The position numbers and the translations under genes are program-made. Shown piece by piece: positions 15,637 to 30,013 of a stretch of 48,357 nucleotides of DNA (position 1 is its first letter; the number at the start of each line of letters is the position of its first letter). The stretch covers positions 1 to 48,357 of the IMG/VR virus record IMGVR_UViG_3300020233_000109, one strand, 5' to 3'. The notes beneath the pieces are model-generated. The model saw only the letters and a program-made list of their open reading frames with translations. It ran no database searches and was not told where the DNA came from. Origin of the DNA: a virus.

Positions 15637-16182
15637 CTACCCACCAGCCTCAAACGTTTCGGTTGTACAAGTAGCCTCGGCTACCACATAACTTAAAAGC
15701 AAGTGGAGAATAACCTCCCCGGCGAGTAATCGACCGGTCGTGGATTTGGCCCAGGGGAACCAGAGGAGGTGAAAATAATAACGTGAAAGGACAACCATCA
15801 ATTTGCTTAAAAGAATGGAGCTATCTACTCCAGGCATATGATACGGTCCTTTAAGTAGTTGGTAGGGGTTCATTTCCAAAAAGAGAATGGGATATTTACA
15901 GGTTTTCTGGAGACGGGAAAAGGCTCGTAACTGACGGGCTGAATCTGAACTAAAAAGATTAGAGGAAATTTCGCTGACCGATCCTTTTCTTTCTACTATT
16001 CCCAGATGGGAATAGTTCTCCAAGAGGTAGTCCCCCGTCTCCAATTTTTCCTTTTTCTTTTTGACCTTAACTATCTTTCTCTTACCTAACTCCCAACAGG
16101 CTATAGTCTTAGGAAATAATAAGGGATAACGTTCCCTGGTATCGGCAACAATTACTATTTCATTTGGTAAAATAACCACCAT
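15637..16182 (-). CDS. ERCC4/XPF-type nuclease
   Basis: 181 residues. Motifs of the XPF/ERCC4 nuclease fold: VADTRER (12-18), TGDYLLE (49-55) and GIVERKGS (61-68), giving D14, D51, E64 and K66. The usual Asp four residues after ERK is not conserved (Ser/Glu). Such small phage nucleases cleave branched DNA. ATG 16182 overlaps the polymerase gene by 23 bases, so translation is coupled. The last codons read TFEAGG and contain a copy of the 15-bp motif (15643-15657). Confidence 0.8.
   Translation of the reverse strand: MVVILPNEIVIVADTRERYPLLFPKTIACWELGKRKIVKVKKKKEKLETGDYLLENYSHLGIVERKGSVSEISSNLFSSDSARQLRAFSRLQKTCKYPILFLEMNPYQLLKGPYHMPGVDSSILLSKLMVVLSRYYFHLLWFPWAKSTTGRLLAGEVILHLLLSYVVAEATCTTETFEAGG
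15643..15657 (-). repeat. 15-bp genome-wide motif, copy 3
   Basis: ACCAGCCTCAAACGT, inside the last codons of the ERCC4-nuclease gene and upstream of the 104-aa gene. Confidence 0.9.
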
Positions 16183-18160
16183 GATCCTCTATAGATATTT
16201 TTAGATCAACTAAGGATAAATCTCCATTTATTTTAGAAAGGATGGGTGGATGCGTCAAGGCTTCTTCCAAAAATTTATCCACAATCCCAACTTCTTCAGG
16301 GGGACAATCCAATAAAACCGAATCATAAGTCTGAGCGCACATTCTGGTTTTCAACATATTTTTTTCCATCAATTCCAAGAGATAATATTGGCCCGATTGC
16401 ATAATCTGAGCCGCCAAACATTGAATGGGAAAATTGCATATCTCGTTGATCTGTGCATTAACGACTCGTGAACCCCCCGGAAAAGAACGAGACCATCCCG
16501 TAACCAATTCTATTCTTCCGGTTCTCAGGGCTTCCAACTTCAAGGATTCCTGCCAACGACGGAGGGTTTGATGGCGAGCGTCAAAACGAGAAATAATACG
16601 ACGACAAACCCCTATATCAAAACGATCTTCCAAAGTCTTGAGTAATTCTATATTACCATATTCCCCTGCCTCCTCCCGTAACGTAGTGAGAAAAGTAGTA
16701 GGCCCCCCCTTAAATAAGACCAGGAAATTAAGAGTTTTACCTGCTTGTCGCCATATTTTGTGAAAACTGGGGTCCGAATCAGGTATATCAACCCCAAGAG
16801 TACTGAGGATAATATGGGCGGTACTGGCATGGAGGTCTTTATTATGACGGTAATCATTTATCATTGCTTCATCACGACTAAGAAGAGCCGCTACCCTCAG
16901 TTCCAGTTGACTATAATCGGCGGTTTTTAATACCCCTCCGAAGAATCGAGTCCGCAATATATTTTTTATCTCGGAAGGGAAGGTTTGGAAACCGGGGCGG
17001 GTACAGGTAATTCTTCCTTGTATAGTCCCCCTAACCGTTGTAGATTTTTTTCCATAACCGGAAGGAACTAAATGCCATGAAGGGTAGAGTCGGGGGCAAC
17101 AAGAAGATAAAATCCCCTTGGAAGGATTATGCAATAAAGGTCTGGTGTAATTATTGATGATATGAGAATTCATTTTATAGTCATGGATGAGACGACATTG
17201 TTTGTAACCCTCAGTAGAGGGATCCAATTCAGTTAACAAAAGTCTAAGGTTAGCTTTATTGAGGGAAATCGCTCTCGTTTTGGGGGTTCTTTCAACCCTC
17301 TCATCATTATAAAGATTATTATCCCGTAAAGAATTTTCGATAACCTCAGTCAAACTTTTTCTGCTCCCCTTACCTGATAAGATAATACCATAATCTTCTT
17401 TAGAGACTTTCATTAGTGAAGAAATAATTTCCTGATGACTATCCTGAATAGATAGAAGTTTATGGGGGGAAACAGTGATACCTGATTCGGTCATAGCCAA
17501 TCCAATATGAATCAAGGCATTCCGATGTTGGCGACAGACTTCGGAAAGTTTGGAGGAAGTCGCGTCTCGATCTTGAATCCTTTGTAACAAAAGGTCTTTA
17601 ATTTGAAGTGTTCGGACACAATCAAGACAGTTATAATGATGGAGTTGAGGGTCTTCGGCTGATTCCGCCGTCCCCTTAGCCCCCGTTACCCGTTCATTCT
17701 CGTAACCACCCAAACCCATAAGTGAGGAAAGAGGCTTGAGGGATTTTTCCGGTCTTTCCTCAAATTCTAAAAAATTAAGAATCATCGTATCATCCAACTG
17801 AATAGGGGACAGATTCCTGGAGGGACTAAAGCCGGTAAGGTGTTTGATCTCCACATCGCAATAACGTAGATAAGATAAATCAAAAAGAATATTCTGTCCC
17901 AGAATAGTTACCCTGTTCTTGAGGCAATAAACGAACCAGTCCCGCAACGTTTGACGATGCAATTTATTATTCCAGAGGAATACACCACAGGTAAATGAAT
18001 CTTTTTCCTCGTTGCGATAGGCCAGAGCGACCGTAACAATCAAATCAGAAGGCGCTATATGGTCGATAACGACTGATTTTTGGGGATGGAAACAGGTTTG
18101 ATTTACACCTTTTAATATTCCATAAGTCTCAATATCAATACATATTTCTTTAATAACCAA
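16160..18160 (-). CDS. Family A DNA polymerase with 3'-5' exonuclease
   Basis: 666 residues. Exonuclease domain: CIDIETYG (D9, E11), N90/D94 in NILFDLSYL, YNCLD (Y176, D180). Polymerase domain: motif A TADYSQLELR (D415), motif B RQAGKTLNFLVLFKGG (R471, K475, F479) and motif C QTYDSVLLD (D613). Odd residues: the usual motif C HDE is YDS, and the Tyr-Gly of motif B is Phe-Lys. The TTG start (18160) comes right after the glycosylase stop, with AAGGA upstream. Replicates the phage genome; the operon with UDG and ERCC4 nuclease supports this. Confidence 0.93.
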   Translation of the reverse strand: MVIKEICIDIETYGILKGVNQTCFHPQKSVVIDHIAPSDLIVTVALAYRNEEKDSFTCGVFLWNNKLHRQTLRDWFVYCLKNRVTILGQNILFDLSYLRYCDVEIKHLTGFSPSRNLSPIQLDDTMILNFLEFEERPEKSLKPLSSLMGLGGYENERVTGAKGTAESAEDPQLHHYNCLDCVRTLQIKDLLLQRIQDRDATSSKLSEVCRQHRNALIHIGLAMTESGITVSPHKLLSIQDSHQEIISSLMKVSKEDYGIILSGKGSRKSLTEVIENSLRDNNLYNDERVERTPKTRAISLNKANLRLLLTELDPSTEGYKQCRLIHDYKMNSHIINNYTRPLLHNPSKGILSSCCPRLYPSWHLVPSGYGKKSTTVRGTIQGRITCTRPGFQTFPSEIKNILRTRFFGGVLKTADYSQLELRVAALLSRDEAMINDYRHNKDLHASTAHIILSTLGVDIPDSDPSFHKIWRQAGKTLNFLVLFKGGPTTFLTTLREEAGEYGNIELLKTLEDRFDIGVCRRIISRFDARHQTLRRWQESLKLEALRTGRIELVTGWSRSFPGGSRVVNAQINEICNFPIQCLAAQIMQSGQYYLLELMEKNMLKTRMCAQTYDSVLLDCPPEEVGIVDKFLEEALTHPPILSKINGDLSLVDLKISIEDHGGYFTK

Positions 18161-18814
18161 TTAGTTTCCTTGATGAGGAGGTCTTAGATTTATAATGGGT
18201 TCAATGACGACAGAATCACGTTTTAATTTCCCTTCTTTGATGAAGGTAAGCATCAGATTCCAATGGTCCCTAACTGCATGGATTAATTGAGGTCTCCTAT
18301 GAGGCAACAAGAGAGCGGGATGATAAGAGAAAAAAACACGAGGCTTTCCTGGTAGATTAGAAAGAACTTCACCCTGTCCTCTGGAGAATGATTCCGTTAG
18401 ATTCTTATCATAGATACAAGTGGAAGCCGTAGCCCCCAAACAGAAAATAATTAAAGAATCGTAATGGGCATTAAGAATTTCTAAATCATCGAGGAGCCAA
18501 GGGCGGCATTTCTTAATTTGTCCGATAGTGGGGGTATTATCCTGTCCAGGACGACAACGACAGGCATTACCCAAATAAACATCGGCATACTTCTGGAGAG
18601 AACAAGAAGAAATAAATTTTTCTAACAGACCACCAGACCAGCCACACCAGATACGTTTTTCCTCGTCTTCACGGAGACCGGGAGCCTCACCGATAAAAAA
18701 AACGACCTTTGACTTACCTCCGGCAACAAAAGAACGGGAAGTCAGACCCGGATTATCGGCGGCGATATAGAGTTTGCATCTCTGGCAATCAGGATGAGAA
18801 AGAAATGAAACCAT
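18161..18814 (-). CDS. Uracil-DNA glycosylase, Fe-S (family 4/5-like)
   Basis: 217 residues. Motif 1 FFIGEAPGLREDEE (39-52) corresponds to the GEAPG water-activating loop, and motif 2 is SYHPALLL (163-170). Cys10 and Cys13 (CQRC), Cys85/Cys87 (CRCRPG) and Cys103 (KKCRPW) can hold a 4Fe-4S cluster. Removes uracil from DNA. Directly upstream of the polymerase and abutting it; UDG-polymerase pairs are known in phages, where UDG may act as a repair or processivity factor. AAGGA precedes ATG 18814. Confidence 0.88.
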   Translation of the reverse strand: MVSFLSHPDCQRCKLYIAADNPGLTSRSFVAGGKSKVVFFIGEAPGLREDEEKRIWCGWSGGLLEKFISSCSLQKYADVYLGNACRCRPGQDNTPTIGQIKKCRPWLLDDLEILNAHYDSLIIFCLGATASTCIYDKNLTESFSRGQGEVLSNLPGKPRVFFSYHPALLLPHRRPQLIHAVRDHWNLMLTFIKEGKLKRDSVVIEPIINLRPPHQGN

Positions 18815-19612: not shown

Positions 19613-19816
19613 TTATTTTTTCCTCTTTTTTTTCGAGAGAGAGAGTGTAAGAAATATTTTTTTATATTCGGGGTTGATAAGAAACATTTTAATATCTTCC
19701 GGGGTTAACATGATAATAAAATCTTCTACTTCTTGAAAATTTTGAGCCGATTGTTGCATGAGTACTTCACAGTGGTAAAGTTGTCGTATCAATTCAAATT
19801 TAGTCTTTTTTTTCAT
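19613..19816 (-). CDS. Small hypothetical helical protein, 67 aa
   Basis: ATG 19816 overlaps the stop of the E1-like gene (ATGA), so it is translationally coupled to it. Product is helical, Lys-rich at both ends, with EVEDFIIMLTPEDIKMFLIN in the middle. No family recognised. Coupling to the E1-like gene suggests it belongs to the same functional unit. Confidence 0.6.
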   Translation of the reverse strand: MKKKTKFELIRQLYHCEVLMQQSAQNFQEVEDFIIMLTPEDIKMFLINPEYKKIFLTLSLSKKKRKK

Positions 19817-20499
19817 TCGTTGTTACCTTGATTAGGAGAATTAACCACGTCAAATAAAATATTCATACCCAATAAACTCATTAAAATATCTTTGGGAACC
19901 CAGAATTCACGCAGGAATTTAGTAAACTGCACTACCATAAAACTGGCGGTAATGGTAGCACAGTAAAGAGTCATTCTCGCCCCACACATTAAATTTTCTC
20001 CTTCGGAATTAGGAAACCAGGTATCCTCCCAGTATTTTCTTGTCTCATAATCATAAGCGGTAATAATCCGCAGGGTTTCACCCCCCACCCTACCGTCCAC
20101 AAAGAATGATCTTTCATCTTCTGTTTGTTTAAATATATTTTTCCTTGCAGTCATACAATCCACACAACAAAAAACGTGTGTCCCCTTATCACAACTGCGG
20201 AAAGGACGATAGTGTGTAGCAATCTCCACAGTCGGATTTATTCTCAAACAATCGTTTTTGGTTACTATTACCTTTTTTTGACCTTGAGAAACATCAGGAT
20301 AACCCTGACTGGCCGTATTGGAAATAGTTACATCATCCATATCCACCAGAGTCAGATGAGGTACACCCGCAGCAGTTAGTTGGAGGGCTACTTGTCGCCC
20401 TACCGACCCTACCCCCACCACCAGTGCATGAACCTGTTCTATCTTTTCTCTGGGAACCAATAAGGACTGCCGACTATACCGGTCTAAATCTTCTTCCAT
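19813..20499 (-). CDS. ThiF/E1-like ubiquitin-activating adenylyltransferase
   Basis: 228 residues. Starts RYSRQ (8-ish), the conserved Arg/Gln N-terminal element, then the nucleotide loop VVGVGSVGRQ (G29-x-G31-x-x-G34), LVDMDDV (D53, D55), N61 and Q65, K75/K76 and the Asp in CCVDCMTARK (D114). Family knowledge: these enzymes adenylate the C-terminus of a ubiquitin-like protein and usually carry it as a thioester; Cys172 in NLMCGARM is a candidate. No zinc-binding CxxC pair of ThiF/MoeB is evident, which fits the stripped-down E1-like group. Lies downstream of the JAB gene with a 31-base gap. Confidence 0.85.
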   Translation of the reverse strand: MEEDLDRYSRQSLLVPREKIEQVHALVVGVGSVGRQVALQLTAAGVPHLTLVDMDDVTISNTASQGYPDVSQGQKKVIVTKNDCLRINPTVEIATHYRPFRSCDKGTHVFCCVDCMTARKNIFKQTEDERSFFVDGRVGGETLRIITAYDYETRKYWEDTWFPNSEGENLMCGARMTLYCATITASFMVVQFTKFLREFWVPKDILMSLLGMNILFDVVNSPNQGNNE

Positions 20500-20530
20500 G
20501 TTGTTTTCCTTTCTTTCGTAAAAAATAAGA

Positions 20531-21442
20531 TTAACAATTATCTAACAAACCTTTATCCCAATAAACCTCAATCAGGTCTATTTTATCTTCATGGGTTTTA
20601 TTTTGAAAAAGACCCTGCATCTTGGGAGGTAAACTTTTTATAATATATTTAACATCTTCAATACTACCCTGTCCCGATAAAACTCTATCAAGAATATCAT
20701 CCCTGGTATCCGACGATTGATTGTTTACTTCATCCGTAAACTCTTCTGAAAAGCTACCGGGATAACCGGAGAGATAACCATTGTCTATATCGTAGGGATC
20801 GTAGGGATCGTAGGTTTGAACTTCGGAAGGAGGTAAGAAAGAAGACCCTTTAACTATTTCATATTTTTTAGAGATATTCTCCTGATAGTGAGTAGTCCAT
20901 TCTTTACTATTACTCCCCGAAAAAGACGTTTGATAATCTACTTCTACTTCTATCTTATGGGAAAGACCCGGTCCCGCCGTAAAGGTTAAACGGGTATAAA
21001 CATCATCATTTCTGGCTAGAATAAACATTATGGCCCAACTACATCTGCCAAATACCTGTAAAAAGGTTTCTTCATCCGTTGAAGAGGGACTAGGACTATT
21101 ACCCGGATGAGTATGAATAAAAATTCGACCAAATTGCTCAGGTTCTCTGTCCTGATCTACCATCTGATTAAAATAATCCCTAATACCCTCATCATCAAAA
21201 TCTACCCCCCCACAAGAAACTTTCTGTTTAGGCAAAATCAAATCCTCTACCAAAAGGAGATTATCCCTGGAGGTAATACCAAACCCCCCTACTTCCATTT
21301 CAGACCGGTTCCGCATGAACAACAACTTGCCCCAAGCATAGGGAGTAAACCGGAGAACAGGATTGGGTTTTCCCTTTAACTCATCAACCCAATAAGGAGG
21401 GGGAGACGACCGAATATTATTCTGCTCTTGTTCTTTTACCAT
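20531..21442 (-). CDS. JAMM/JAB (MPN) metallopeptidase, deubiquitinase-like
   Basis: 303 residues. The catalytic set is complete: E50 in EMEVGGFG, then H110-T-H112, seven residues, S120 and D123 (IHTHPGNSPSPSSTD). This is the JAMM zinc-peptidase signature. Preceding strands (LRFTPYAWGKLLFM, 30-43) fit the MPN fold. The C-terminal 120 residues are acidic, with a YDPYDPYDIDNG repeat encoded by a 9-bp DNA repeat. Expected to process or remove the ubiquitin-like protein encoded at 22919-23143. AAAGG precedes ATG 21442. Confidence 0.9.
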   Translation of the reverse strand: MVKEQEQNNIRSSPPPYWVDELKGKPNPVLRFTPYAWGKLLFMRNRSEMEVGGFGITSRDNLLLVEDLILPKQKVSCGGVDFDDEGIRDYFNQMVDQDREPEQFGRIFIHTHPGNSPSPSSTDEETFLQVFGRCSWAIMFILARNDDVYTRLTFTAGPGLSHKIEVEVDYQTSFSGSNSKEWTTHYQENISKKYEIVKGSSFLPPSEVQTYDPYDPYDIDNGYLSGYPGSFSEEFTDEVNNQSSDTRDDILDRVLSGQGSIEDVKYIIKSLPPKMQGLFQNKTHEDKIDLIEVYWDKGLLDNC

Positions 21443-21511
21443 AAGACAACCTTTCTTTTAGTCAACCATTCCAATACTAAACTAATCCACTACCAAATCT
21501 ATTTGTTTTTC

Positions 21512-22867
21512 TTACTCCCTCGCTGCCCAACATTCGGGACAAAATAACATATCTTCACTAGAAGAGGGGGGAGATTTTTCATAACAATAATAATCAGTAC
21601 AGTCTTCACACATATATGCATTATGATGCCTATTACCCGTTTCACAATAATCACATTCACAATATTCACAATATCTGACATGGTCCTCCCCACAGCCGGT
21701 ACAAAATAATTCCCCACAATCCTCACAGTAAATCTTATGATTCATCCTAGTGGATTCACCACACTCACAACAATAAAAGCCATGTTCCGAACAAAAAACA
21801 AGATCCCCAGACCCAATGGCACATCTTTCACATAAAAAAATCTCACATACCTCACAGATTAAATAATCTGTGGTTTCTTCACCATCATCATCATCATCAT
21901 CTGAAATAGGGGGTGATGCTCTACCACAACTTCCACATTCTTTTACCTCATCTGCATCCTCAACACCCCAGAGAGCTAACGAAGCATATGCCGAACGACG
22001 ATTATAATGGGTCAAAAGGTTCCAACAATCCTTGAATACTTCCGAAAGTAGCCCGGCATTTAAATTGGTGGGGATATGAGTTGCATTGCCCAAACAGAGA
22101 ATATTATGGGAGATATGAGGATGGGTATAGTTTCTTGTTCGTTCATACCTTTTATCAATAGATTTCCATCCAATATGTACTTCATCCCGATTAGTCCATA
22201 TTACCTCTCCAAAAAAAGATCCCAAGTTCAGAGACACATAATCTTCCTCATCACGAATATGGGGAGCCTTAATTACAAGAGGCTTTGTTACTATAAACAG
22301 ATAAGTTCCTTTATATTCCGGTACACCTCGATCAACAAATGGAGGAAACTCTATAGGAGGAATATCCAAAATCTTCGGGATAGTAATTCCGTGAAAAAAA
22401 TAAATTGAGTTAACCCAGGAAAAGGATAAAAGAGTATTAAGTTCCTGTCGGACAAAGATGGAATTTATGGGGGGAACGATATTTATATCCCCTATCCCCA
22501 TATCTCTTATCTCACAGAATAAGTCCTTTTTCCTATCATTGAATTCCCGGTAATACACGGCAGAAGAAGACTGGGGGTTTAACGGGAGAGAACCAGCAGC
22601 CCCCTCTCTCATCATATCGGATAACTCATAGATAATTGCTATTCTCCTTTTCAACTCACGATTTAATTTAGACACATAATCCAGTCGATACCTGTAATAT
22701 ATGGACCAGTTTCTTTTTGTGATTATATTGGCAATGGTAGTAATATCAGGATGGTCATAGGGGGGTTTAGCTCCCTTTTTTACAGTAATATGTAGAGCTA
22801 TTTTCCCCCTACTTTGGATTGGTAATAGTGAAACGGAATCCAGATTTTCAGAATTTATTATTTCCAT
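21512..22867 (-). CDS. E2-like domain fused to a Cys-rich RING-like treble-clef array
   Basis: 451 residues. Residues 185-300 read as an E2-type segment: strands YLFIVTKPLVI (189-199) and VSLNLGSFFGEVIW, then THPHISHNILCLGNA (248-262), in which HPH and Cys258 correspond to the HPN and active-site Cys of ubiquitin-conjugating enzymes; helix LLSEVFKDCWNLLTHYN and SAYASLALW follow. After an Asp-rich linker (323-332) come at least five CxxC groups (C311 to C446) spaced like tandem RING or binuclear zinc fingers. Thus E2 and E3-like parts may be on one chain. Homology is inferred by eye. AGGAG precedes ATG 22867. Confidence 0.65.
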   Translation of the reverse strand: MEIINSENLDSVSLLPIQSRGKIALHITVKKGAKPPYDHPDITTIANIITKRNWSIYYRYRLDYVSKLNRELKRRIAIIYELSDMMREGAAGSLPLNPQSSSAVYYREFNDRKKDLFCEIRDMGIGDINIVPPINSIFVRQELNTLLSFSWVNSIYFFHGITIPKILDIPPIEFPPFVDRGVPEYKGTYLFIVTKPLVIKAPHIRDEEDYVSLNLGSFFGEVIWTNRDEVHIGWKSIDKRYERTRNYTHPHISHNILCLGNATHIPTNLNAGLLSEVFKDCWNLLTHYNRRSAYASLALWGVEDADEVKECGSCGRASPPISDDDDDDGEETTDYLICEVCEIFLCERCAIGSGDLVFCSEHGFYCCECGESTRMNHKIYCEDCGELFCTGCGEDHVRYCEYCECDYCETGNRHHNAYMCEDCTDYYCYEKSPPSSSEDMLFCPECWAARE

Positions 22868-22879
22868 ATCATTACTCCT

Positions 22880-22909
22880 AAAAAAAAGGGAGGGGTTTAT
22901 TCCCCTCCC
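22880..22909 (-). terminator. Rho-independent terminator between the Ubl gene and the E2/RING gene
   Basis: Perfect 8-bp stem GGGAGGGG/CCCCTCCC with six-base loop, followed on the minus strand by seven or eight T. It lies 10 bases after the Ubl stop, so most transcripts should end here with leaky readthrough into the enzyme genes. Confidence 0.9.
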
Positions 22910-22918
22910 TTGATAAAA

Positions 22919-23143
22919 TCAGGCTACCTTCAACTTGGTTGGAGCAATAACAATCTTATCATTATCCTCCAATATTCGATCATTAGCGAGATAGTCAGTT
23001 ACCAGTTCATTGTTGACGGAACAGGATAATCCGGCACGGGCGCCTTTGATCCGAAGGAGTTCCGACAACCCCACACCCTCACGTAGCTCAATTTGTTCCG
23101 CCAGGCCGGAACCATCATTGTTTACATACACGACGTTAATCAT
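22919..23143 (-). CDS. Beta-grasp ubiquitin-like protein (ThiS/MoaD-like), 74 aa
   Basis: Start at ATG 23143 (MINVVYVNNDGSG) with AAGGAG seven bases upstream. The strand-helix order fits a beta-grasp fold: INVVYVN, a Gly-containing turn, AEQIELREG, helix LSELLRIKG, CSVNNELV, LEDNDKIVIAPT, as in ThiS/MoaD and prokaryotic ubiquitin-like families (VN-x-E-x-V and L-x-x-x-D-x-V/I-x-I-x-P). The C-terminus is TKLKVA with no Gly-Gly. Next to E1-, E2- and JAB-like genes it is the presumed conjugated protein. Confidence 0.75.
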   Translation of the reverse strand: MINVVYVNNDGSGLAEQIELREGVGLSELLRIKGARAGLSCSVNNELVTDYLANDRILEDNDKIVIAPTKLKVA

Positions 23144-23367: not shown

Positions 23368-23380
23368 TGTTTCCATCCCT

Positions 23381-23424
23381 ACCTACCTACCTACCTACCT
23401 ACCTACCTACCTACCTACCTACCT
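23381..23424 (+). repeat. Tetranucleotide microsatellite (ACCT)11
   Basis: Eleven uninterrupted copies of ACCT, just after motif copy 4 and 40 bases before a possible rightward gene. Read as protein it would be (PTYL)n. Repeat length changes by multiples of four would shift frame. Confidence 0.95.
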
Positions 23425-24151: not shown

Positions 24152-24211
24152 GGAAAAAACATTTATAAGTCTTTATTTTATAACGTGTTACGATTCTTTA
24201 GCACCCTACCA

Positions 24212-24259
24212 AGTTTAGAAGTTTAGAAGTTTAGAAGTTTAGACGTTTAGAAGTTTAGG
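24212..24259. repeat. 8-bp tandem repeat, six copies
   Basis: AGTTTAGA in six head-to-tail copies, the fifth (CGTTTAGA) and last (AGTTTAGG) with one change each. It runs over the stop codon of the leftward gene ending at 24255. Confidence 0.95.
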
Positions 24260-25317: not shown

Positions 25318-25635
25318 ACAAGATATAGAAGGTCTTCTTTATCGTCTTCACTTAAAATTGTTATCAGAAAACTCTCCCAATTACTTGATAAATGTTTCTC
25401 TCCATCATTATATAGATGTTTCTATCCATCATTATATAGATAAGTATCTCTATCACTTCACAAAATAGAATAATCCTCATAAACAAAGGAACCACCAAAC
25501 GGGGCGGCCCCCTAAAAAATGTGGGAGGAGGAGGGGAATCACCTCCCCTCGTTACCAAAAAAAAAAATAAGTCCCTTTCTTGACCCAAAAGTATATAACG
25601 GCAAACCTTCCCAAAACTGCGAAAAACCCATTTCT

Positions 25636-25672
25636 GTAACGGGTATAACGGATTCTGTAACGGGTATAACGG
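25636..25672 (+). repeat. Iterons 1 and 2 (direct), 16 bp, 21-bp pitch
   Basis: GTAACGGGTATAACGG at 25636-25651 and 25657-25672. Partial copies (ATAACGGC, GTAACGGC) occur at about 25594, 25688, 25697 and 25725. Confidence 0.9.
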
Positions 25673-25899
25673 CAAAAAAGAGAGTTTGTAACGGCAGTAA
25701 CGGCATTTCCAGTCAATGCGCCCATATAACGGCACATTTCCATTTTTTCGGAAAAAAGTGAGAGGGGGTACACCCCCCTTTTCCCTCTCAAAAAAAAACC
25801 CCCTATTATTATACCCCCTTAAAAGAACAGGGGTACAATCTTTTCTTCTTCTTTTACTCCTATCCCCATGGTCCAGGGTCCTCTCTCCAAGCAATTATG

Positions 25900-25998
25900 C
25901 CGTTATACCCGTTACAAACAGCCTTTTTTTCCTCATTTTGCTGTTATACCCGTTACAAACACCTCTTTCTACCCCCGTTATGCCGTTATACCCGTTAC
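25900..25998 (-). repeat. Iterons 3-5 (inverted), 16 bp
   Basis: CCGTTATACCCGTTAC at 25900-25915 and 25983-25998, and with one mismatch at 25941-25956: the reverse complement of iterons 1 and 2. The two groups face each other across about 230 bases. Confidence 0.9.
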
Positions 25999-26007
25999 AA
26001 AATCGAC

Positions 26008-26013
26008 TATAAT
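26008..26013 (+). promoter_or_regulatory. Possible rightward -10 box (TATAAT) next to iteron 5
   Basis: TATAAT with no TTGACA-like -35; iteron 5 occupies the -35 position, so an iteron-binding protein could regulate it. Weak evidence alone. Confidence 0.4.
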
Positions 26014-26138
26014 CCTATAGGATGTTAAGATAGGCAACACAAAATGGCCCAAACCTCCCCAAAATTCCTCTTGTCTCCTCACCAAAACCGATATAACTCC
26101 TTATTTTCCCCACAATATTACCCCTAACCCCTTATTTT

Positions 26139-28147: not shown

Positions 28148-30013
28148 ATGGATGTTATTAAATCCTATTATCCCCTACCCCCTGATTATGAAGAATTAAC
28201 TAAAGAAGGGAAGAAAAGGGCTAGGCTATCTCTGGCCTCTAATCATAGTACCCCAGAGAAATTTGTATTAGCCTGGGATTTCTTTCGTCGTTATTATCTT
28301 AAATCTATGCCTCCGGGTTTTTTTTACAAAACCCATTGTGAATCCCCCCCTTTTCACTATCAGGCCATTTATGATATGGCTCGTTATCATATGAATATTT
28401 TAGGTGCGCCTCGTGGTTTTTCCAAGTCTGTCATTATCGGTATTGAGATTCCTTTGTTGTTGTGTTGTACCCGTCCCTCTTTTGAAATAAGTATTGGGAC
28501 ATCGACTTGGGAACTTCTTAAAGACAAATTTGAAATGATTATGTATCAGCTAACTAATAATCCTCGTATCCTGGAGGATTATGGATGTCTAAAGCCCAAT
28601 AGGGGTGGGGGTCGTTGGAATACTCATTTCCTGTCGCTTAGTAATAGGGTACATGTTAGAGGTTTTTCCGTTGATGGTAAGAAACGAGGGGGCAGAGCCG
28701 ACCTACTCCTACTGGACGATCCTGAATTTGATACTCGTAATGAACAGGTGGGGGCCAAGATGCGCCGTGATTTTGAGACTCTGGTATTCAAGCAGATGAT
28801 TCCCATGATGCATCCCCAAGCCAGTGTGTTTTGGATAGGCACTATTATTGATAGAAGAAGTTTTATCTACCATGCTTTTTACGGAGAAGATTCTCGTTTT
28901 TCCCATTGGAACAGAAGGATTTTAGCCGCCTGTAAAATAGAGGGAACCGAATTTAATTCCCTGCTCTGGCCTGAAAGGTTTGATGTTTCTTTTCTTCAAC
29001 AGAAAAGATTAGAGATGGGACCAGCCCCTTTTGCCGCTGAGTTTCTTAATGCGCCAGCTTCAGATGAGGATCGAATTTTCCGTATTTATCCTGATCGCCA
29101 TACTTATCAGGTGGTAGGGGATCAACATAGTAAAGATATTTTTCTTAGTTCCGATGCAACAATTATATCTATGCAAGTTAGGGAAAAAGGTTCCGAAGAA
29201 ACAGATTATAAGGGGTTGACTCGGATTACTCTTCCCTTTGTGGCATGGGTCAAAACCCTGTATCGTGTTAGTTTTATTGATTACGCCCGGACTACGGGAA
29301 CCCATTCGGACTACAGTTGTGTAATGACTTTGGGGTTTGATCGTCAGGATATTATGTACGTTCTGGATATGTGGCTTGGCAAGGTTTCTAATGCCACCCT
29401 GGAGGATATTACTATGAAACAGGGATACCGATGGAGGAGTCAGGTGTTGGCTCCCGAAGCTATTTCCATTCAGAAAGAAATGGCTGAACAGTTGGGTCGC
29501 CGAGTTGACAGAGATAAAATTTATAATGATTGGTATCCCAAAGTATTTCACGTCCGATACCCCTCTAATACCCCCAAGGCCCAGAGAATAGCGGGACTGG
29601 AATGGAGGTTTCATCGAAATCGGATCAAACTACCGGAGAAAGCACCCCCCTATGACAATAAAATGTGGCAGGAATTAAGGAATCAAATAGCTGATTTTAC
29701 CTTGAGTCTTGAACTTCTGCCCAAAGACGATGCTATAGATACTCTGGCTATGCACCAGTACTTGGGACGAAAGAGGGGAACCCAGAAGGAGAGGGAACCG
29801 GAGGTCAAAACGACTCGTAGTATGTTGTTGGAGGGCCAGCGAGAAGTTCCTAAATGGGATGTACCTTTGATCTCAGGTATGAACATGGAAGATATAGATG
29901 AAGAAGTATTGGACGCTTTGAGGATAAAAGATTATAATAATCAGAAAACCAGGCAAAAACGATCATCTCGTTACGATGGTCGTCGATCCTCCTATGTGGG
30001 AACAAGATTATGA
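28148..30013 (+). CDS. terL: Terminase large subunit
   Basis: 621 residues. ATPase: Walker A-like GAPRGFSKS (86-94), Walker B ADLLLLDD (184-191), then GTIIDRRS. Nuclease (RNase H-like): FIDYARTTGTHSDYS (376-390; D378, D388) followed by IMYVLDMWLGK, and a late acidic pair in PKDDAIDTLAM. Packages DNA into procapsids through the portal. An insert of about 40 residues (325-365) separates the two domains. There is no Shine-Dalgarno before ATG 28148, which is unusual in this genome. The next gene overlaps by four bases. Confidence 0.95.
   Translation: MDVIKSYYPLPPDYEELTKEGKKRARLSLASNHSTPEKFVLAWDFFRRYYLKSMPPGFFYKTHCESPPFHYQAIYDMARYHMNILGAPRGFSKSVIIGIEIPLLLCCTRPSFEISIGTSTWELLKDKFEMIMYQLTNNPRILEDYGCLKPNRGGGRWNTHFLSLSNRVHVRGFSVDGKKRGGRADLLLLDDPEFDTRNEQVGAKMRRDFETLVFKQMIPMMHPQASVFWIGTIIDRRSFIYHAFYGEDSRFSHWNRRILAACKIEGTEFNSLLWPERFDVSFLQQKRLEMGPAPFAAEFLNAPASDEDRIFRIYPDRHTYQVVGDQHSKDIFLSSDATIISMQVREKGSEETDYKGLTRITLPFVAWVKTLYRVSFIDYARTTGTHSDYSCVMTLGFDRQDIMYVLDMWLGKVSNATLEDITMKQGYRWRSQVLAPEAISIQKEMAEQLGRRVDRDKIYNDWYPKVFHVRYPSNTPKAQRIAGLEWRFHRNRIKLPEKAPPYDNKMWQELRNQIADFTLSLELLPKDDAIDTLAMHQYLGRKRGTQKEREPEVKTTRSMLLEGQREVPKWDVPLISGMNMEDIDEEVLDALRIKDYNNQKTRQKRSSRYDGRRSSYVGTRL

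Follow-up and report, generated by a model that had tools for sequence, protein, structure and literature searches.

The question raised by this locus is whether a tailed phage can encode a self-contained ubiquitin-like conjugation pathway, and what such a pathway would do for the virus. The locus occupies positions 19813-23143 of the IMG/VR contig IMGVR_UViG_3300020233_000109 (48,357 bases; the window, meaning the whole stretch analysed), where four genes follow one another on the minus strand and encode a ubiquitin-like protein (Ubl, 74 amino acids), an E2-like protein (451 amino acids), a JAMM peptidase (303 amino acids) and an E1-type enzyme (228 amino acids). An initial annotation had read these consecutive leftward genes as a phage-borne cassette of Ubl, E2 with a RING-like Cys array, JAMM and E1 inside a replication operon. 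The open reading frames lie where it placed them and its reading of the cassette is supported; judged by the enzymatic make-up, the phage probably carries a self-contained Ubl conjugation pathway. The features of the cassette are as follows.

22919-23143, minus strand: Ubl, a ThiS-like beta-grasp protein of 74 amino acids and first gene of the cassette (Pfam ThiS; homologue in locus L094; hidden Markov model (HMM) relatives upstream of E2 elsewhere)
22925-22927, minus strand: codon GTA for Val73 of the Ubl, at the tail-glycine position (alignment of 73 sequences)
22886-22911, minus strand: terminator-like hairpin and T tract, AAGGGAGGGG(AATAAA)CCCCTCCCTT TTTTTT, after the Ubl stop and ahead of the E2 gene
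21512-22867, minus strand: E2-like conjugating enzyme with a C-terminal zinc-type Cys array (conservation, AlphaFold core, hhalign)
22094-22123, minus strand: E2 active-site segment HPHISHNILC, from H249 to the putative catalytic C258 (residues invariant in relatives)
21530-21937, minus strand: Cys array C311-C446, a putative RING/RBR-like zinc module (about 17 of its Cys reach at least 90% conservation among 73 relatives)
20531-21442, minus strand: JAMM/JAB metallopeptidase (Prok-JAB 3e-4; conserved catalytic residues)
19813-20499, minus strand: single-domain ThiF/E1-type adenylating enzyme (ThiF 1.7e-20; conserved C172)
19613-19816, minus strand: open reading frame of 67 amino acids overlapping the E1 stop (no known family; not conserved)

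Relatives of the cassette were reached only through alignments of the E1. An E1 alignment started from the window led to loci L093 and L094 and then to 29 viral and 80 genome loci, hereafter the window type; a second set, the crAss type, comprises 78 viral loci, with HMMs built from eight or nine phages. No relatives came from tblastn with the window E2 against phages and plasmids, or from scans that used one window sequence at a time (E2, E1 and TerL). hhalign matched neither the window E2 nor the window Ubl, each taken as a lone sequence, to the crAss families, and the E2 comparison worked only with a deep window-type profile. A scan with the E2 of a Xanthomonas phage found nothing.

Three of the four proteins were assigned to known families. 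The E1 consists of one ThiF domain (Pfam ThiF, 1.7e-20), in agreement with the initial annotation; its C172 (19984-19986), the putative thioester Cys, is conserved in 106/106 sequences (100%), and the crAss-type E1s have an equivalent Cys. The JAMM protein matches Prok-JAB (3e-4) under the Pfam cut-off, and its metal site is complete, the residues E50, H110, H112, S120 and D123 already picked out in that annotation being 100% conserved in 90-93 relatives. The proposed beta-grasp nature of the Ubl was borne out by a ThiS match slightly under the Pfam cut-off in the window (E = 2.4e-4) and above it in the close homologue of L094 (2.3e-7).

The E2/Cys-array protein matched nothing in Pfam, PHROGs, PADLOC or NCBIfam, and its earlier assignment as an E2 had been an inference; it is now supported by conserved residues, a profile match to eukaryotic E2s and a modelled core. 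H249, C258 and G260 are invariant among 73 aligned relatives, whose consensus, VTHPHVxxExLCEGD...TYNxxSPYVxL, reads like an E2 segment, the eukaryotic pattern being HPNVxxxGxICLD...NPxxP. In hhalign, the window-type core profile scored 28.9 (E 3.8e-4) against four human E2s, and the best of 60 column shuffles reached 18.8; HPH/HPN, the Cys and the helix after it were aligned. The same core scored 27.7 against the crAss-type core (shuffles at most 17.2). Modelled by AlphaFold from the 73-row alignment, the protein has a mean pLDDT of 65 but mostly 80-91 over residues 190-300, where the prediction shows a beta-meander and two helices along with the HPH-C loop; the model of the E2 of phage phiCrAss001 is confident as well (85.8). 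As for the C-terminal array, its profile matches TFIIH p44 and FYVE zinc fingers (E 4e-4 to 6e-4), and it likely binds zinc. It is kept in most window-type members and is missing from L093 and from the crAss type.

The gene order is conserved in phages and bacteria. All four components in the order Ubl-E2-JAMM-E1 were found in 72/109 window-type loci, the 80 genome loci among them being nearly all from Planctomycetota, and in 71/78 crAss-type loci; the other seven crAss-type loci lack parts, and in both types the loci short of a full cassette are mostly at contig ends. The crAss type includes a cultivated phage, phiCrAss001, in which gp79-gp76 form the Ubl-E2-JAMM-E1 cassette, and the same arrangement is present in DAC15, cr85_1, cr111_1, cr128_1, Dulem virus 41, bajarodcaudo virus 1 and Flavobacterium phage FpV4, while in cr106_1 the gene before E2 could not be recognised as a Ubl by eye. 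Among the neighbours of the 78 crAss-type loci are primase (70/78), PD-(D/E)XK exonuclease (67/78) and uracil-DNA glycosylase (UDG, 54/78). Public annotation of the crAss-type genes names single parts only (ThiF, metalloprotease, E1 enzyme family; in phiCrAss001: hypothetical, metalloprotease and ThiF).

The terminase connects the window with several other carriers. The TerL proteins of the L094, L154, L155, L157 and L158 phages, all of which carry the cassette, are 32-44% identical to that of the window, and in the E1 tree the window groups with L154, L094 and L157 (96/88), long branches being involved. By the shared terminase and the E1 grouping together, this phage lineage has kept the cassette. 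Elsewhere in the E1 tree, phage and bacterial E1s are interleaved, the viral label changing at least 6 times, and the cassette has been exchanged between phages and bacteria. A window-type cassette whose E1 groups with viral E1s was also seen in L214, a metagenome-assembled genome (MAG) called Heimdallarchaeota, possibly as viral or misbinned DNA. In L250, the TerL of the L157 record, the terminase match is split in two within an open frame of 1018 amino acids, which suggests an intein-like insertion.

The tail of the Ubl bears directly on how it would be used. Window-type Ubls end in ...PTKI(E/D)G, usually followed by one to about twenty residues (consensus PTKIEG-A...), and the tail Gly is present in 72/73 of them. 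In crAss-type Ubls it was found in 64/64 distinct sequences, placed before a long extension, which in phiCrAss001 amounts to about 130 residues after Gly90. In bacterial BIL systems, the BilC peptidase processes BilA to expose a C-terminal Gly (PMC11354881). The conserved Gly, the extension and the complete JAMM in the same cassette would fit processing to a C-terminal glycine, and a Gly in front of an extension is what a peptidase-processed Ubl would be expected to have.

Directly behind the Ubl gene there is a terminator-like hairpin in 32/72 window-type and 45/63 crAss-type loci (77/135; 1/1350 in shuffles), and none was found after E2 or JAMM in the loci examined. After E1, a hairpin was detected in 23/105 window-type loci, nearly all of them bacterial genomes, and in 0/68 crAss-type loci. 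The simplest reading of this arrangement is that the tag may be made in excess of its enzymes.

Several points weigh against a functional conjugation pathway. Conjugation of the Ubl, the thioesters and the tail processing are all predicted steps. The window itself is the sole exception among the 73 window-type Ubls, with Val73 in place of the tail Gly, though its enzymes look intact; since Val73 replaces the Gly found in 72/73, conjugation by the window's own copy is uncertain, and Val73 may be an error, a polymorphism or a real loss. Foldseek with the whole window and phiCrAss001 E2 models retrieved no E2 from the PDB, and the fold is argued from the profile and the order of secondary-structure elements. 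The best PDB match of the E2 model was the RING finger 1wim at the array (E 0.073, prob 0.84), which is not significant; the likeness to RING is weak and the array is not proven to be one. Finally, the crAss E2 profile gave no direct match to eukaryotic E2s (one shuffle scored 134, and the comparison was not used), and the crAss-type E2 would thus be tied to them only through the window-type family.

Two further observations concern the downstream end of the cassette. The initial annotation had included a coupled gene of 67 amino acids after E1; the open reading frame is real (19613-19816), and no relative of it was found in any locus examined. It was considered as a second Ubl and dropped, having neither a ThiS match nor a homologue. 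In L094 a second small ThiS-like gene (L094:6783-6992) lies directly after E1, at the position matching this open reading frame.

The contig encodes TerL, a family A DNA polymerase, a Sak4-like protein, an exonuclease and UDG, with a weak portal match in the PHROG search. From these terminase, portal, polymerase, Sak4-like, exonuclease and UDG genes, the window is read as a tailed phage that has a replication operon of its own, and the claim that the cassette is phage-borne and sits inside this operon holds.

28148-30013, plus strand: terminase large subunit (phrog_38, 5.8e-51), which marks the contig as a tailed phage
18161-18814, minus strand: UDG (Pfam UDG 1.6e-19), downstream of the cassette
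16160-18160, minus strand: family A DNA polymerase (PHROG DNA polymerase 3.7e-51), in the cassette's own operon

Upstream of the cassette lie two short tandem repeats, perfect or nearly so: CCTA x 12 at 23378-23424 and AAGTTTAG x 6 at 24211-24258. At 25632-26015, one strand has three copies of the iteron-like CCGTTATACCCGTTACA, at about 25899, 25940 and 25982, one of which contains a mismatch; two copies of the reverse complement, at about 25635 and 25656, accompany them, close to a switch in gene direction and a GC-skew minimum, and this region is a candidate replication origin.

The proposed mechanism would run as follows. The Ubl gene would be read first, and the terminator predicted behind it, if leaky, would leave Ubl in excess over the enzymes. 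JAMM would trim the Ubl tail after the glycine, as suggested by the conserved Gly with short or long extensions behind it; the E1 would adenylate the Ubl, hold it on C172 and hand it to C258 of the E2, the fused zinc array may serve as a built-in E3 or substrate-recognition module, and JAMM may also be able to remove the tag. Phages that have diverged widely hold the cassette in their replication module, which makes proteins at the replicating genome, whether of the phage or of the host, the likeliest targets, although we regard the chance of this as about even. A bolder reading, with odds a little under even, is that the complete E1-E2-Ubl-JAMM pathway is a long-kept, terminator-regulated part of how several lineages of tailed phages replicate, belonging to their replication module also in the crAss-like phages of the human gut, and would modify proteins at the replicating viral genome for the virus's own reproduction.

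The closest bacterial relatives are the Planctomycetota operons (L166-L245), for which we know of no name. They share with the window the order Ubl - E2/Cys-array - JAMM - E1, the HPHV..LC.G motif, about 10 CxxC pairs in the array, the same JAMM and a single-domain E1, but they are chromosomal, are often present in several copies per genome and keep the Ubl tail Gly. An AAA+ ATPase stands beside some of them and none was seen beside the window cassette; altogether 18 loci, including four viral ones, have such a gene next to the cassette (L232:589-2232 and 17 others), possibly for an unfoldase partner. Prokaryotic E1/E2/RING/JAB/Ubl systems were reportedly predicted by Burroughs, Iyer and Aravind in 2011, and such systems, like the window, bring together Ubl, E1, E2, JAB and a RING-type component. 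In the instance described by PMC7159879, which cites Burroughs 2011 for these systems, RING is encoded by a gene of its own and the Ubl is fused to the E2, whereas the window has an E2-array fusion and a free Ubl.

The initial annotation had compared the cassette with PRTRC-type and Bil-type operons, and this comparison was not upheld. Iyer et al. 2006 described bacterial E1/E2/JAB/Ubl operons as well as phage Ubl-JAB pairs in tail assembly (PMC1779556). PRTRC (compare their operon type 6d) likewise groups Ubl, E2-like, JAB and ThiF/E1 genes, but the type 6d E2 has no His before the Cys (PMC1779556), where the HPH of the window type is nearly invariant; among the NCBIfam models, the window E1 scored 26.7 bits against PRTRC_ThiF (cut-off 144.75), and the window Ubl, E2 and JAMM had no PRTRC match. 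A BIL operon (BilABCD) also brings a Ubl and an E2 together with a JAMM-type peptidase and an E1, but BilA has two Ubl domains and BilD two adenylation domains (inactive and active) plus a Cys domain (PMC11354881), whereas the window Ubl is one 74-amino-acid domain and its 228-amino-acid E1 has one ThiF; the E2 motif also differs. The E1-E2 fusion of CBASS Cap2 was not found, E1 and E2 being separate genes in the window, and PADLOC E1-E2 models matched the E1 partially only; no search aimed at a CD-NTase was made. Lambda-type TAPI/TAPK share a phage-borne Ubl and JAB peptidase, but are without E1/E2 and belong to the tail module, not replication. The cassette of phiCrAss001 agrees with the window in the four-gene order, the E1 and JAMM families and the profile-related E2 cores, and differs in the Ubl extension after Gly90 and in an E2 with HSH instead of HPH and without a Cys array. 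Jumbo Xanthomonas and Erwinia phages encode an E1 beside an 892-amino-acid protein, which contains HPH...CLG and has a Cys-rich tail, together with a small protein that ends in SGG; no JAMM was recognised at these loci. In Xanthomonas phage PhiXhv-15 (L003:2772-7527), the E1, the large HPH...CLG protein and the small SGG-ending protein were seen together. The cassette is a variant of known prokaryotic Ubl systems, represented by the window type with its E2-zinc-array fusion and by a crAss-type cousin. Ubiquitin, ThiF and JAB go unmentioned in the main text of a 2021 survey of crAss-like phages (PMC7886860), and no paper linking crAss-like phages with a ubiquitin-like system was found in the open-licence literature, subscription papers and preprints lying outside the search.

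Phages might instead have acquired the cassette from hosts among the Planctomycetota and use it for defence or superinfection exclusion, protecting the infected cell from competing phages; in those hosts it may act against phages, as BIL does. A Ubl pathway can be antiviral, as the precedent of BIL illustrates, and the nearest relatives of the window E1 (47-49% identical) lie in Planctomycetota chromosomes, several genomes having three to four strong cassette copies. These copies were also considered as prophages in 13 genomes, and the idea was rejected: terminases were absent or on other contigs, except a weak one in the Heimdall MAG, 92 kb from the cassette. That no terminase was found in the Planctomycetota isolate genomes checked, and that phage and bacterial E1s interleave in the tree, would both suit such an origin. 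We nevertheless consider it rather unlikely that defence is the role of the cassette, as the crAss-type cassette keeps its place next to primase, UDG and exonuclease even between genomes that are very diverged, in contrast to accessory defence genes, which are variable, and the window lineage keeps its cassette along with its own terminase.

A role in counter-defence, in which the phage would use its Ubl and enzymes as decoys or erasers to interfere with a host Ubl system, is improbable. The window Ubl might then be a tail-dead competitor, as Val73 would presumably prevent the usual activation through Gly, and host-type operons are common in Planctomycetota; however, a pure decoy would not need the catalytic residues that are all conserved in the window E1, E2 and JAMM, and the other phages examined retain the tail Gly. 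It is more improbable still that the genes form a sulphur-carrier system (ThiS/ThiF plus JAMM) that would serve a cofactor, base or tRNA modification, the E2-like protein playing an accessory part. The best named family matches are indeed ThiS and ThiF/MoeB, but all relatives have the H249/C258 active site, the E2 profile matches, and operons of E1, E2, JAB and Ubl have been read as conjugation systems (PMC1779556).

Ubiquitin-like conjugation in bacteria has so far been known mainly from predicted operons and antiviral systems. If phages carry the whole cascade within their replication gene set, as we propose, the pathway would serve the virus side too. The crAss-type version is present in cultivated phages (phiCrAss001, DAC15 and the Flavobacterium FpV phages), which makes tagging by a phage directly testable, and the cassette would offer a joint explanation for genes of abundant gut phages now listed as 'hypothetical', 'thiamine biosynthesis' and 'metalloprotease'.

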